Shown here: one piece after another, positions 19,783 through 34,140 of the stretch
Layout of the letters: each line of letters opens with the position of its first letter
Numbering within the stretch: the stretch's first letter is position 1
Assembly (NCBI GenBank): GCA_024281015.1
Contig: JAMXLL010000198.1
Coordinates: forward strand, 1 to 38,134
From: Candidatus Binataceae bacterium
GTDB lineage: Bacteria; Desulfobacterota; Binatia; Binatales; Binataceae
Direction of reading: 5' to 3'
DNA: 38,134 bases
Notes under the pieces: model-generated
Database searches by the model: none
Told to the model about the DNA's origin: nothing
Seen by the model: the letters and a program-made list of their open reading frames with translations, nothing else
Made by a program: the position numbers and the translations under genes

Positions 19783-20640
19783 AAAATGGCCGCCCCCTAC
19801 CCCATCCCCCTTAGACCGCTGCTTGTCGCCTCGTTCGTCCTGATAACGGCGGCCACGAGGGCGCGGGCTCAGATCGACCCTTGGGAATTCGAAGTTTACC
19901 CCTACGCGACATCCTCTCGAGGTACCCTGGAAATCGAAACCAATAACGCCGTCGTGGCAAATGGCCACAGCGCTGGGGGTGATGGCACCGCGTCAGGAAC
20001 ATTCAAGAGCCAGGCAATGTGGTACAACCAGTTCGAGTTCACCTACGGCCTTACCGACCGGCTTGAATCGGCTTTCTATCTTGAGCTGGCCCATCCGAGC
20101 GGCAACGAATTTTGGTACGCGGGGTCGAAGTACCGGGTGCGTGGCAGACTTCGCGATGAAGGAGAGTTGCCTGTTGACTTGGGATGGTACGCGGAACTCG
20201 AATGGCACAAGACTCCGCAGTTCGACGACTCGGACCTGGAACTTGAGTTGCGCCCGATCCTGGAAAAGGATATGGGCCGGTTCTCCATAATTGCCAACCC
20301 TGTTTTTGAGAAATCGCTGATCGGCGCCGGCCATAATCAAGGCTTCGAGTTCGGCTATCGCAGCGCGTTGGATTACGCATGGAAGCCCTATTTATCCCCG
20401 GGGATCGAGTTCTACGGCGGGATCGGACTGCTCGACGACAGTGATCCGCTCGATCGCCAGCAACACTACGTTTTTCCTGTTATATGGGGCCATCTGCCGT
20501 ACGGCGCCGAGTACAACCTGGGCCCCGGTTTTGGGCTGACACGGGGTTCGGACCATGTGATCGTCAAGTTTAATTTTGAATTGGAACGTTTCGTCGGGGC
20601 ATTGTTCGGCCCCTCTGCCGACAATGGATGGTTTTACTAA
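19768..20640 (+). CDS. secreted/outer-membrane beta-barrel-like hypothetical protein
   Basis: N-terminal signal-like 'LRPLLVASFVLITAATRARAQ' followed by alternating strands rich in aromatic residues ('MWYNQFEFTYGLTDRLESAFYLEL'); start may be ATG 19786 or later. Confidence 0.7.
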   Translation: MRFIIKMAAPYPIPLRPLLVASFVLITAATRARAQIDPWEFEVYPYATSSRGTLEIETNNAVVANGHSAGGDGTASGTFKSQAMWYNQFEFTYGLTDRLESAFYLELAHPSGNEFWYAGSKYRVRGRLRDEGELPVDLGWYAELEWHKTPQFDDSDLELELRPILEKDMGRFSIIANPVFEKSLIGAGHNQGFEFGYRSALDYAWKPYLSPGIEFYGGIGLLDDSDPLDRQQHYVFPVIWGHLPYGAEYNLGPGFGLTRGSDHVIVKFNFELERFVGALFGPSADNGWFY

Positions 20641-20648
20641 GAGTTAGT

Positions 20649-20660
20649 GAGGCGCGCCTC
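20649..20660. repeat. 12-bp perfect palindrome GAGGCGCGCCTC just after a stop codon
   Basis: Read directly; 9 nt after the stop at 20640. Confidence 0.55.
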
Positions 20661-20741
20661 GTTTCCGCCTTTCCCGCCTCACCTGCTTTGACCCCCGGGA
20701 GCGGTGGACATTCGGCCGAATTACGGCATATTGTGGCCGGT

Positions 20742-21305
20742 ATGGAGCGCCATACTGAGATCGCTGTTTTTGCTGGAGGATGTTTCTGGTGCACCGAAGC
20801 GGTTTTTGAGCGGCTGAAGGGGGTTACTTCGGTAATGCCAGGATATACAGGGGGTGTCGTGCCCAATCCCAGGTATGAGCAGGTCTGTACCGGGAGGACG
20901 GGGCACGCCGAGAGCATTCGAGTCGAGTTCGATCCGGCAGAAATTTCCTACAACGATCTGCTCTCGGTATTTTTTGCTACGCACGACCCGACCTCGCTCA
21001 ACCGGCAAGGTGCGGACGTCGGCACCGAGTATCGCTCCGCAATTTTCTATACTACCGCCGAGCAGAAACGCACAGCCGAAGACTACATCGGGAAGTTGAA
21101 CGAACAGCTTCCGCTCAAGGTCGTGACCGAAGTGGCTCCGCTCGGCGAATTCTATGAAGCGGAAGATTACCACCAACAGTATTATGGCAATAATGCCTTT
21201 GCGCCTTACTGCCAGTTCGTTATCGAGCCCAAGCTGCAAAAGCTCTACAAGAATTTCGGCGGAATGCTAAAGCAGGCCGATAAAGCCGCCTCGCCGTCCG
21301 AATAA
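20742..21305 (+). CDS. msrA: peptide-methionine (S)-S-oxide reductase MsrA
   Basis: 'AVFAGGCFWCTEAVFERLKGV', 'YTGGVVPNPRYEQVCTGRTGHAESIRVEFDP', 'QGADVGTEYRSAIFY'. Start set to the internal Met of the 20628 ORF. Confidence 0.95.
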   Translation: MERHTEIAVFAGGCFWCTEAVFERLKGVTSVMPGYTGGVVPNPRYEQVCTGRTGHAESIRVEFDPAEISYNDLLSVFFATHDPTSLNRQGADVGTEYRSAIFYTTAEQKRTAEDYIGKLNEQLPLKVVTEVAPLGEFYEAEDYHQQYYGNNAFAPYCQFVIEPKLQKLYKNFGGMLKQADKAASPSE

Positions 21306-23743: not shown

Positions 23744-24925
23744 TTAGCGAGACCTGCCGGTCAGCGCCAGCGGTGCATAGTAGGGGCGATTGCCCAGAGC
23801 ATCTACGGCCGCGAAAAACTCCGGTCCCGACGCATTGCCGACGTCAACCATCTCAAGTGCTTGCCGAACAAAGTGCCAGCTCTCCGGACAGAGTTGTTTC
23901 GCCAGATCGAAATAGTATTGAGCTTCAGCCTTCTCGCCCCGTGACAATAGGTATTGCCCAAGGCGGAAATTCGCGTTCGCCAACGCTTCGTTCGATGAAG
24001 GCGCTTCGACCCGGGCAAGCGCCTGATCGGGTGATAAGGCATACGCGCTCGTCTCGCCGTTCTTAACCCAATCTCGTACTGCCTCGACGTAGCTCATTCG
24101 CGTTGCGCGCCCATGCTCGGCCAATTCCGCCGGCATCGAGAAGGTCGCGCGATCCATCTTGCGGAAGCCGTCGGTCGCTCCGGCCGGCTCAGCCGGCCGT
24201 ACTATACGGCCTCGCTCGTCGATCCAGACCGCCATTGGCACGTTGGTCATGTTATAGAGCTGTGCGACGATATGCCGCTCATCGATCAAACACGGATAGG
24301 TCGCCGGTGCTGCCTTGGCGCATAGCTCGGAGCTCCAGCCCATGATATCGCGCAAGGGCTGCGGAAGGTCGATTGGCGTGGCCGGCCGAATCCAGCTTTC
24401 TACCGCAGCGCGCCCGCCGGCATCGAAAGCGACGGCAATAATGGTGAAGTTCTGGTCCTTCAGTTCTTCATAGATGCTCTGCCAGACCGGCAGATCGAAG
24501 CGGCACCCTCACCAGGAGGCCCACGACATCAACAAGACCTTCTTCCCCCGATAATCCGAGAGCGAGTGCGGATTGCCCTCGAGGTCGGGCAAGGTGAAAT
24601 CCGGTGCCTCAAGCGAGCGGAGCCGGCTGCTAATCTGGTCTGGAGCGTCGCTGAATGACCAGAAAGCATGTTGTTTATCGTGTACGAACGGCTCTCCGAG
24701 ATGGCGCGCTAAAGCAGAAAGATTGAACAAGCCCGGCCGCACGAACTCGGACTCCCGCCCAACCGGAATTGGCACGCAACGTTCACCCAGGCAAGCACCC
24801 TGCTGCTTGAGCTCCCACCCGGTCGTGCGAGTCAAATCCTCGTTGGACATCCAGAGATCGTCGCCTTCTATCACGGCGCTATTCACAACAGTAGTGCGGT
24901 CGCCGTAAATGACAGATGCTCGCAT
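23744..24925 (-). CDS. thioredoxin/redoxin-fold selenoprotein (393 aa with Sec at residue 139), ResA/TlpA-like with WASW-U-GCR active site
   Basis: ORFs 24509..24925 and 23744..24355 are in the same frame; translation across the single TGA (24509-24511) continues without another stop: '...DFTLPDLEGNPHSLSDYRGKKVLLMSWASW-U-GCRFDLPVWQSIYEELKDQNFTIIAVAFDAGG...'. RBS ggagg before ATG 24925; SECIS-like hairpin right after the TGA. Confidence 0.88.
24476..24501 (-). promoter_or_regulatory. bacterial SECIS-like stem-loop downstream of the UGA
   Basis: mRNA: UGAGGGUGCC-GCU-UCGAU-CUGCC-GGUCU-GGCAG-AGC. Perfect CUGCC/GGCAG stem with 5-nt loop GGUCU, plus GCU/AGC outer pairing with a UCGAU bulge. Loop starts at nt 24 counting U of UGA as 1. 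Confidence 0.82.
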
Positions 24926-27705: not shown

Positions 27706-28878
27706 ATGAACAGCGTGCATCGAGATCTGTTGCCAAGTTTCTTCGCGCATGCGCCCAGCTTGCGCAAAACTGGGAAACGCCGACGTGCCAAACGGTTTCC
27801 CGCTCTACTGGGATGCCTCCTGGGAACGGCGGTGATCGTACTGATAAACGGGCGCGCGGCGACAGCCCAACCGATCGTCCCCTTACAGGTGTCAACATCT
27901 CCTGCGAATGGCGATACGAATCCCTATGGGCTCATTAACGTGCCGCCTGGATTTCCTGCTGGATCGATTCACAAGGGTCAGCTTCTCGTTTCGAACTTCA
28001 ACGATGCTACCACTCAAGGCAAAGGGACCACCATCATTGCAGTGGACCCGGGTACCGGCGAAACGTCGCTGTTCTTCCAGGGGACACCGGGAACACCGCT
28101 CGGGTTTTCCAACGCGCTAACCGTCGCGCGCGCCGGATTTGTCTTCGCCGGTTCAGTCCCCACGAGCGATCCCGGTGGTACCATGGCCGAACCCGGTGCA
28201 CTGCTCGTGCTCGACAACCAGGGCAGTCTCGTAACTTCGCTTTCGCAGTCTGACAAGATCAACGGACCGTGGGGTATGGCGATTAATGACCAAGGGAACG
28301 GCGCGCAACTGTTCATTTCCAACGTCCTCGACGGAACTATCACCAGGCTCGAAGTGTCTTTCCAGCACGGCGGCTTCGCTGTTGTCGGTACTCCGCTGAC
28401 GATCGCTTCAGGTTACGCCTTCGGACCGGATCCTACCGCGGTAGTCGTCGGCCCCGCCGGGCTGGCGTACGACAGCAACAATGATGTGCTTTATGTCGCC
28501 TCGGAATTAAACAACAAGATTTTCGCGTTGAACGGTGCAGGTACGACAACTAACGACCTCGGCACCGGCAACGTGGTCTTCTCAGATTCGACGCATCTGG
28601 CCGGTCCCCTGGGTTTGATTTTGGCTACGAATGGCGATCTCATTACTGCCAATGCAGATCCGTCGACCGTGATCACGCCGCCTGGGACGAACACAACCGC
28701 TGGACCGAGTGAAATCGTCGAATTCACGAAGGACGGTCACTTCGTGAGAACCTTCTCGATTGATTCCGCTCCGGGTTCAGCTTTTGCGATTAATGAACTT
28801 TCCAAGGGTGGGCATCTTCAGTTCTCTTACGTGGACGATGCAGAGTCGACGCTGACCGTATTGCGCCTCTCGCACTAA
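27706..28878 (+). CDS. secreted NHL/beta-propeller-like protein (related to TIGR03118-type proteins)
   Basis: Signal-like N-terminus; repeats such as 'GPWGMAINDQGNGAQLFISNVLDGTITRLEV', 'GPAGLAYDSNNDVLYVASELNNKIFAL'; RBS 'gggagg' before the ATG. Confidence 0.75.
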   Translation: MNSVHRDLLPSFFAHAPSLRKTGKRRRAKRFPALLGCLLGTAVIVLINGRAATAQPIVPLQVSTSPANGDTNPYGLINVPPGFPAGSIHKGQLLVSNFNDATTQGKGTTIIAVDPGTGETSLFFQGTPGTPLGFSNALTVARAGFVFAGSVPTSDPGGTMAEPGALLVLDNQGSLVTSLSQSDKINGPWGMAINDQGNGAQLFISNVLDGTITRLEVSFQHGGFAVVGTPLTIASGYAFGPDPTAVVVGPAGLAYDSNNDVLYVASELNNKIFALNGAGTTTNDLGTGNVVFSDSTHLAGPLGLILATNGDLITANADPSTVITPPGTNTTAGPSEIVEFTKDGHFVRTFSIDSAPGSAFAINELSKGGHLQFSYVDDAESTLTVLRLSH

Positions 28879-28906: not shown

Positions 28907-30082
28907 GTGACCATGAAAAACAAGAGAATGCCGATCGTTCTCCTCGGAGCTATCTTCGTGTTGATCGCATTCGGCGATCACTCGCGCGCGGCCGGGATGG
29001 GCTACGCACAGAGAAATCTGGTTTCCAATGGCGCCGTCCCCGCCGATAACATTGATCCGAACCTGATTAACCCGTGGGGCATTTCATTTTTCCCCGGAGT
29101 GAGTCCGTTCTGGGTTTCGGACAACAACGCCGGGGTTAGTACTCTATATGACGGCACAGGCTCGCCGATTCCGCTGGTAGTGGATATTCCGTCACCGACA
29201 GATCCGACCCAAGGTGGCAGAACGGGGGCGCCGACAGGGCAAGTTGCAAACCCTACTTCGGCGTTTAACATCATCAAGATCAGCGACCCGAATGGCACTG
29301 ACTTCGGTCCAGCTCTTTTTATCTTTGCCACCGAGGACGGCACGATTGAGGCATGGAACCTGAACAAAACCCTTGAACCAGATGGAGCTCTGTCACCGTT
29401 TCTCGGCGGTGTTCCAGATGATGCCGTGATCGTGGTCGATAACTCAGCCAAGGGCGCGGTGTACAAGGGTCTGGCGATGGGAGCAGTCAGCGGCAATCCG
29501 ATGTTGTACGCGACGAATTTTCGGACCGGCAATATAGACGTCTTCGACGGCAACTTCCGGCAGGTTCCGCTTGGCGGATCGTTCATCGACCCGAATGTAC
29601 AGCATGGATATGCCCCATTCGGCATCCAGAACATCGGAGGCAAGCTCTGGGTTACTTACGCGAAGCAAGATGCGGCCAAGCATGATCCAGTTAACAGGCC
29701 GGCGCACGGATTCGTCAGTGTGTTCGATACCGGCGGTAATCTGCTCCAGCATTTCGCCCAGCATGGGCATCTCAACTCGCCGTGGGGTGTTGCTATGGCG
29801 CCGGCGAGCTTCGGCCAATTTGCCGGAGACATCCTCGTCGGGAATTTTGGCGATGGACGAATCAACGCGTATGATCAGACAACTGGCCACTGGCTAGGCA
29901 CGCTGTCAGATGCGGATGGCAGTCCGATCGTCAATCCTGGGCTCTGGACGGTGACCTTCAGTGGCCCGGCCGACGAGACCGCAGCGGGTGCGGAGCCGGA
30001 TACCCTGTATATCACAGCGGGACTCATCGGCCCGACCCATGAGCAAGCCGGGCTTTTCGCAAAGATCTCGCCGATTCCATAG
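28907..30082 (+). CDS. TIGR03118 family secreted protein
   Basis: 'YAQRNLVSNGAVPADNIDPNLINPWGISFFPGVSPFWVSDNNAGVSTLYDGTG' and 'SPWGVAMAPASFGQFAGDILVGNFGDGRINAYD'. Confidence 0.88.
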   Translation: MTMKNKRMPIVLLGAIFVLIAFGDHSRAAGMGYAQRNLVSNGAVPADNIDPNLINPWGISFFPGVSPFWVSDNNAGVSTLYDGTGSPIPLVVDIPSPTDPTQGGRTGAPTGQVANPTSAFNIIKISDPNGTDFGPALFIFATEDGTIEAWNLNKTLEPDGALSPFLGGVPDDAVIVVDNSAKGAVYKGLAMGAVSGNPMLYATNFRTGNIDVFDGNFRQVPLGGSFIDPNVQHGYAPFGIQNIGGKLWVTYAKQDAAKHDPVNRPAHGFVSVFDTGGNLLQHFAQHGHLNSPWGVAMAPASFGQFAGDILVGNFGDGRINAYDQTTGHWLGTLSDADGSPIVNPGLWTVTFSGPADETAAGAEPDTLYITAGLIGPTHEQAGLFAKISPIP

Positions 30083-32424: not shown

Positions 32425-34140
32425 ATGACTGACCTGACCGAGCCTCTAGAAGCGCAATTAGCCCACGCAGACGACCGTATCCGTCTCAATCACTGGATAC
32501 CCCAGCAATGGGGTGTGGTGCCGCGGCTGCGGATTGGCCAGCGATGGTTCAACCTGATGTGGCTCATCCCGATCGGGATAACCCTCCTGATGCTGGGTAT
32601 TGCCACGGCGCAGGAGCTGATGCAGCTTTCGGCAGTGAAGAGTTTTCTCCGGCGCTACCCGGGGCAGATCGCCGAACCCATATCCTATTCGGGCTTTCCA
32701 TTGTGGCTGCGGCTCGAGCATTTCTTCAATCTCTTTCTGATGTTTCTTATTATTCGCGCTGGTATCCAGATACTGGCCGATCATCCACGGTTATACTGGA
32801 ATCGAGACTGCACGCCGGGCACAGAGTGGTTCCGCTTTCAACGCGACGTGCCGATGCACCGCATCTGGACCGCCAAGGATGATTCGGTGACCTTGCCGGG
32901 ATGGTTGGGGATTCCCGGACTTCGCCATTCTATCGGACTTGCGCGATGGTGGCATTTTTCGTGCGCATTGTTGTGGGTGCTAAACGGGGCGGCATTTTAC
33001 GCGATGTTATTCGTGACCGGCCAGTGGCAGCGGGTCGTGCCGCACAGCTTGGCAGTTTTCCCCAATTCGCTCTCCGTCGCGCTGGAGTACCTGTCGCTGC
33101 GGTTCCCGGCCAACGAGGCCTGGATCCGCTACAACAGCCTGCAGCAGCTCACCTACTTCATTACCGTGTTCGTTGCTGCGCCGCTTGCGATTATCACCGG
33201 TCTGATGCAGGGACCGGCCATCTCGAACAGCGTTGGACGTGTCGGAAGAATCCTTCACCGGCAAGCGGCTCGTTCGATCCACTTTTTGGTAGCCTGCTGG
33301 TTCGTCTTCTTTATCTTCGTACACGTCACACTGATTTTCATAACGGGCTTGCGGCAGAATCTGAATAATATGTTTGCGGGCGTTAACGATGATGGGTACC
33401 GCGGTTTCATCATCTTCGCCATTGCGATGATAATCGTTGCCATAACCTGGGTATTCGCGACGCCGCTCACGATCAGATACGCGCGCCTGGTGCAACGTAC
33501 CGGCCGCTTCATGGTAGGTTGGCTGAAGGGTGTTTCTGAACGCATGAACCCCAGCCTGGAACTTACAGAAGCCGACATATCTCCTTTCTTCTGGCCCAAC
33601 GGCACGATGCCGAACTCGGCCGAGTTCGAGGCCCTGGTACACGATCACTTCAATAATTATAAGCTGCGGGTTAGCGGTCTCGTGAGTAATCCCAGGACAT
33701 TCTCCTTCGATGAGCTGAAAGCGATGCCGAAGCAGGAGCAGATCACTGCTCATTTCTGCATTCAAGGATGGTCCGGGGTCGCGAAATGGGGCGGAGTGCC
33801 GATGGGCCGTATCCTCGACCTGGTCAAGCCAACGGCGTCGGCGCGCTACGCAGTATTCTACTCTTTCGCCGAGGGATCAGACGGCGGCCGCTACTATGAT
33901 GTCCACGAGCTTCGAAACATGCGCCACCATCTGACTATCCTCGCTTACGAAATGAATGGAGCGCCTGTGAGTGTACTCCATGGAGCTCCATTACGGTTGC
34001 GATGTGAGAACGAACTCGGCTTCAAACAGGTTAAGTGGATCGAGGCGATTGAATTTGTCGCCGACTTCCGCCAGCTTGGGGGCGGGCAAGGTGGCTACAA
34101 CGAGGACCACGAGTTCTATGGCTATCGCATGCCAATCTGA
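32425..34140 (+). CDS. fusion of di-haem cytochrome b (b561-type) membrane domain and sulfite-oxidase/YedY-type molybdopterin domain
   Basis: N-terminal TM/His segments 'LEHFFNLFLMFLIIRAGIQILADHPRLYWNRDC', 'HSIGLARWWHFSCALLWVLNGAAF'; C-terminal 'AHFCIQGWSGVAKWGGVPMGRIL' with the Moco-ligand Cys and 'LRCENELGFKQVKWIEAIEFV'. Confidence 0.88.
   Translation: MTDLTEPLEAQLAHADDRIRLNHWIPQQWGVVPRLRIGQRWFNLMWLIPIGITLLMLGIATAQELMQLSAVKSFLRRYPGQIAEPISYSGFPLWLRLEHFFNLFLMFLIIRAGIQILADHPRLYWNRDCTPGTEWFRFQRDVPMHRIWTAKDDSVTLPGWLGIPGLRHSIGLARWWHFSCALLWVLNGAAFYAMLFVTGQWQRVVPHSLAVFPNSLSVALEYLSLRFPANEAWIRYNSLQQLTYFITVFVAAPLAIITGLMQGPAISNSVGRVGRILHRQAARSIHFLVACWFVFFIFVHVTLIFITGLRQNLNNMFAGVNDDGYRGFIIFAIAMIIVAITWVFATPLTIRYARLVQRTGRFMVGWLKGVSERMNPSLELTEADISPFFWPNGTMPNSAEFEALVHDHFNNYKLRVSGLVSNPRTFSFDELKAMPKQEQITAHFCIQGWSGVAKWGGVPMGRILDLVKPTASARYAVFYSFAEGSDGGRYYDVHELRNMRHHLTILAYEMNGAPVSVLHGAPLRLRCENELGFKQVKWIEAIEFVADFRQLGGGQGGYNEDHEFYGYRMPI

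Follow-up and report, generated by a model that had tools for sequence, protein, structure and literature searches.

Reading frame and in-frame TGA

The window analysed here is a 38,134 nt stretch of DNA from a Candidatus Binataceae metagenome-assembled genome (MAG), and the locus of interest lies on its minus strand. The ORF track splits this locus in two at an in-frame TGA, and we regard it as a clean case of a gene divided by ordinary annotation. The features discussed below are the following, with domain boundaries being approximate.

23744..24925, minus strand: predicted selenoprotein gene, 393 aa and a TAA stop, selenocysteine (Sec) at residue 139, member of NF041054 (WAxxUGC_long)
24509..24511, minus strand: in-frame TGA, predicted to be read as Sec at residue 139 in the motif WASW-U-GC; TGA in 32 of 33 family members and TGC in one
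24478..24494, minus strand: putative SECIS hairpin UCUGCC-GGUCU-GGCAGA, 6 bp, with a loop beginning 20 nt after the UGA
24626..24925, minus strand: beta-rich N-terminal domain, approximately residues 1-100, with invariant C45 and C50 (CX4C)
24161..24610, minus strand: thioredoxin-fold domain of the ResA/TlpA/AhpC-TSA type, approximately residues 106-255, with Sec139-Gly-Cys141
23765..24130, minus strand: C-terminal helical TPR-like region, approximately residues 266-387, with a weak TPR_2 match

The minus-strand frame from 24925 to 23744 holds only two stops, the internal TGA at 24511-24509 and the terminal TAA at 23746-23744. The initial annotation had stated that this TGA ends the first ORF while the same frame continues without a stop, and a stop scan bore this out; the residues it gave on either side (WASW-U-GCR) are the same in our read-through translation, which reads MSWASW-U-GCRFDLPVWQSIYEEL. 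The TGA is followed by 254 stop-free codons; base composition alone would produce such a run with a probability of about 8e-5. The second listed ORF (23744..24355) begins at an internal TTG, but the frame is in fact unbroken from the TGA. The read-through product aligns end to end across the TGA with the relatives L021 and L022 (61% identity, residues 1-388), and the nearest named relatives are two Candidatus Binataceae MAGs. As the homology spans the TGA, the continuous frame is not in doubt.

The locus might also be thought to encode two proteins, one of 138 aa cut short at the UGA and the other starting from the internal TTG. Sec decoding is usually inefficient, and when selenium is scarce a share of the product is probably truncated, but such a split would part WASW from GC inside the thioredoxin fold, and the conservation runs unbroken across it; we consider two separate products extremely improbable. 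Our preferred reading is that 23744..24925 is a real selenoprotein gene in which UGA is predicted to be read as Sec, and we put the probability of this at about 0.96.

Family membership and the Sec column

A profile search with the 393-aa read-through product, as proposed earlier, gave a match to NCBIfam NF041054, 'ResA-like WAxxUGC motif-containing protein', of 307.5 bits (301.3 by genome search) against a curated whole-protein cut-off of 300 bits. This is the curated family of ResA-like WAxxUGC proteins to which the initial annotation had pointed. The motif with in-frame TGA that NF041054 requires is present as WASW-TGA-GC, and Pfam detected AhpC-TSA/Redoxin along with a weak TPR match. The gene is a further member of a known selenoprotein family; its description as an unannotated selenoprotein holds for the ORF track only, as NCBI already annotates the family and publications list it. 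'Prx-like (UGC-containing)' selenoproteins are listed in the Global Ocean Sampling study (PMC2398784) and a 'UGC-containing TlpA disulfide reductase family protein' in a 2026 review (PMC13188914), and from motif and domain we infer that both names refer to the NF041054 family.

All 28 aligned members match NF041054, and the identity between the window's protein and the other members found ranges from 33 to 61%. Among 96 genomes, being the source genome and its relatives, NF041054 matches over the cut-off were seen in 26, with further TGA-containing matches below it, and by our own count the TGA-form gene is present in 41. The family is widespread among genomes related to the source genome, and it is less a surprise than a reasonable subject for biochemical work. 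A plasmid search detected no close relative, only ResA-like partial matches.

In the 33 members inspected (the window's gene and 32 relatives) the codon at the Sec column is TGA in 32 and TGC, encoding Cys, in one (L052). Distant ResA-like homologues have Cys (TGT/TGC) at the same column, so that every homologue examined carries either Sec or Cys where the first active-site Cys of a TlpA/ResA-type protein had been placed. The genome harbouring L052 (G048) is given as 100% complete, and in it selB was not found at E <= 1e-60 nor tRNA-Sec at E <= 1e-9; the Cys form in this genome fits a Sec-to-Cys exchange following the pathway.

These counts bear directly on whether the locus is a pseudogene, that is, a Cys-type ResA-like gene whose TGC/TGT became TGA through a nonsense mutation or was wrongly assembled as TGA. 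TGA is one base away from both Cys codons and the source MAG is fragmented, but the same TGA occurs in 32 of 33 members, from many genera and families and in separate assemblies, which refutes this explanation and agrees with the earlier argument that a random nonsense mutation was unlikely. The covarying hairpin after the TGA and the Sec machinery in the genome, both treated below, also speak against it, and we assign it a negligible probability.

A putative SECIS element downstream of the UGA

Bacterial SECIS elements have been described with 16-37 nt between the UGA and the apical loop (PMC10778597), and as 5-6 bp hairpins with an invariant loop G (PMC4607533). The hairpin at 24478..24494 has a distance of 20 nt, a G in the loop and compensatory changes. 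In 29 distinct sequences, which are mutually related, 99.4% of the stem cells are paired, and no slid version of the hairpin comes near to it in pairing. The outer stem pair appears as CG, GC, AU, UA and UG, so that five standard pair types account for 28 of the 29 sequences and a mismatch for one, while the loop G is invariant.

Further, two codons within the element are frozen. Leu145 is encoded by CTG in all 33 members, against 33% of the Leu codons overall in these genes, and Gln149 by CAG in all 33, against 76% overall; these are the only frozen synonymous sites among the conserved degenerate positions. On the other side, the Cys member L052 also retains both codons. The folding energy 3' of the UGA was no better than that of synonymous or dinucleotide shuffles, and the SECIS assignment therefore rests on covariation and codon freezing. 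An Rfam search gave no named family at the hairpin. On the strength of the covariation and the frozen codons, we predict that the hairpin is a bacterial SECIS element, and the constraint acting on it can be read from compensatory changes together with frozen synonymous codons.

On either side of the GU in the loop, positions 24 and 27 (window 24488 and 24485) were found as GC in 13, CG in 11 and AU in one. This pattern suggests contact across the SECIS loop, or it may stem from linked codon choice at Pro146-Val147.

Selenocysteine machinery in the source genome

The source MAG (G000) comprises 4.83 Mb in 379 contigs and is 91.7% complete with 5.3% contamination. Of the four genes that the initial annotation proposed to look for, selA (567 bits, cut-off 268), selB (367 bits, cut-off 242) and selD (385 bits, cut-off 125) were all detected over the cut-off, whereas the bin yielded no intact selC, the gene for tRNA-Sec. 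This is the one gap among the checks put forward in the initial annotation; the others that were run favoured its reading. The selD gene (L019, contig C24:1258-2181) has one in-frame TGA, at GUAGK, which we take to be the active-site position, and for this reason selD is a second selenoprotein gene. For formate dehydrogenase TIGR01553 the cut-off was not reached, and a Sec-type FdhA was not shown.

A search with the tRNA-Sec consensus pattern gave no match in the bin, and one over-threshold RF01852 match was rejected, as it is a tRNA-Ser(TGA). Elsewhere selC is present in 34 of the 43 genomes tested, and ARAGORN reports tRNA-SeC in G001, which is of the same genus as the source. The end of a conserved segment lies 284 bases from selC in G001. 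In the source genome, on contig C19, the matching segment leaves 275 bases up to the end of the contig. Because this syntenic segment stops so near the contig end, selC is likely missing through an assembly break there.

On another contig of the source genome (C156:3173-3203; L092:1501-1531), a stretch of 31 bp matches the selC 3' end at 97%, directly following a gene for what reads as a glycine cleavage T protein. This stretch is not a tRNA and was rejected as such; it looks like a remnant or an attachment site. In L065 (G020) there are two copies of the selC 3'-end segment, at 176-204 and 1501-1529.

That the bin lacks an intact tRNA-Sec would be in keeping with general UGA read-through or reassignment, for instance to Trp or Cys, in place of Sec insertion, and opal suppressor tRNAs are used by some bacteria. 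On the other hand, TGA serves as the ordinary final stop in many relatives' copies of this very gene, selA, selB and selD are all in the source genome, and the same-genus G001 does have tRNA-Sec. The position is moreover that of an active-site Cys in homologues, and the covariation of the SECIS hairpin likewise argues against reassignment, which we hold to be very unlikely.

Among the 96 genomes, the TGA form occurs in 37 of 77 with selB versus 4 of 19 without detected selB (Fisher P = 0.04, a value that is only indicative because the genomes are related). Three of these four are incomplete (53, 80 and 85%). The fourth, G073, speaks against the Sec reading: its completeness is put at 99%, yet it carries a TGA-form gene (L042) with no selB found at E <= 1e-60.

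Domain structure and proposed chemistry

An AlphaFold2 model based on the 28 aligned members, with Cys substituted for Sec, reached a mean pLDDT of 91.9. For the thioredoxin domain the nearest solved fold by structure comparison was ResA, and sequence matches agree. The TPR_2 match is weak in the window's protein and was seen in 24 of the 28 family members. The invariant residues include C45, C50, C139/U and C141. As inspection by eye shows no signal peptide, we assume that the 393-aa product is probably cytoplasmic.

We propose that SelB, acting on the hairpin 3' of the UGA, would bring Sec-tRNA(Sec) to the ribosome, where UGA would be translated as selenocysteine. Sec139 would then be the nucleophile on a disulfide or peroxide substrate and Cys141 would resolve it as a selenenylsulfide. 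Regeneration of the reduced form might involve the N-terminal Cys45/Cys50 pair and the cellular thiol system, and the TPR region might dock a partner. That the Sec-Gly-Cys active site performs thiol-disulfide or peroxide chemistry seems somewhat favoured, while a relay through Cys45/Cys50 is a tentative suggestion. We further speculate that the protein could be a single-chain redox relay, where the N-terminal CX4C is a built-in partner of the Sec-Gly-Cys thioredoxin domain and the TPR arm picks the client; this we think rather doubtful. To our knowledge, such an architecture (CX4C, Sec-Gly-Cys thioredoxin domain and TPR) has no characterised counterpart.

Neighbouring genes

None of the window ORFs tested between 18766 and 31767 was conserved beside the relatives' genes, where the flanks were short, and therefore no operon partner is named. 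Elsewhere in the window, 28907-30082 encodes a protein of the TIGR03118 family (338.6 bits against a cut-off of 80), and the gene preceding it (27706-28878) matches weakly. The ORF at 32425-34140 has a C-terminal MsrP/sulfite-dehydrogenase-like and an N-terminal cytochrome-b-like part, with matches below cut-off, and 20628-21305 encodes peptide methionine sulfoxide reductase MsrA in an ordinary frame with no TGA.

Comparison with known systems

SelL and the Prx-like selenoproteins with UxxC or UxxU motifs are also thioredoxin-fold selenoproteins, but their motif spacing differs from the UxC of the window's protein, and the SelL-related NF040769 matched weakly in only 2 of the 28 members. ResA, TlpA and StoA have a CxxC motif and are exported or membrane-anchored. 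The window's protein has the thioredoxin fold in common with these thiol-disulfide oxidoreductases, whereas CxxC is absent and replaced by UxC, additional N- and C-terminal domains are present, and there is no obvious signal peptide. The 'Prx-like (UGC-containing)' proteins (PMC2398784) and the corresponding entry in PMC13188914, likened here by description, are similar in having a UGC motif in a thioredoxin fold of the AhpC-TSA/TlpA type. With NF041054 the window's protein shares both motif and domain order, at a score just over the cut-off (307.5 versus 300).
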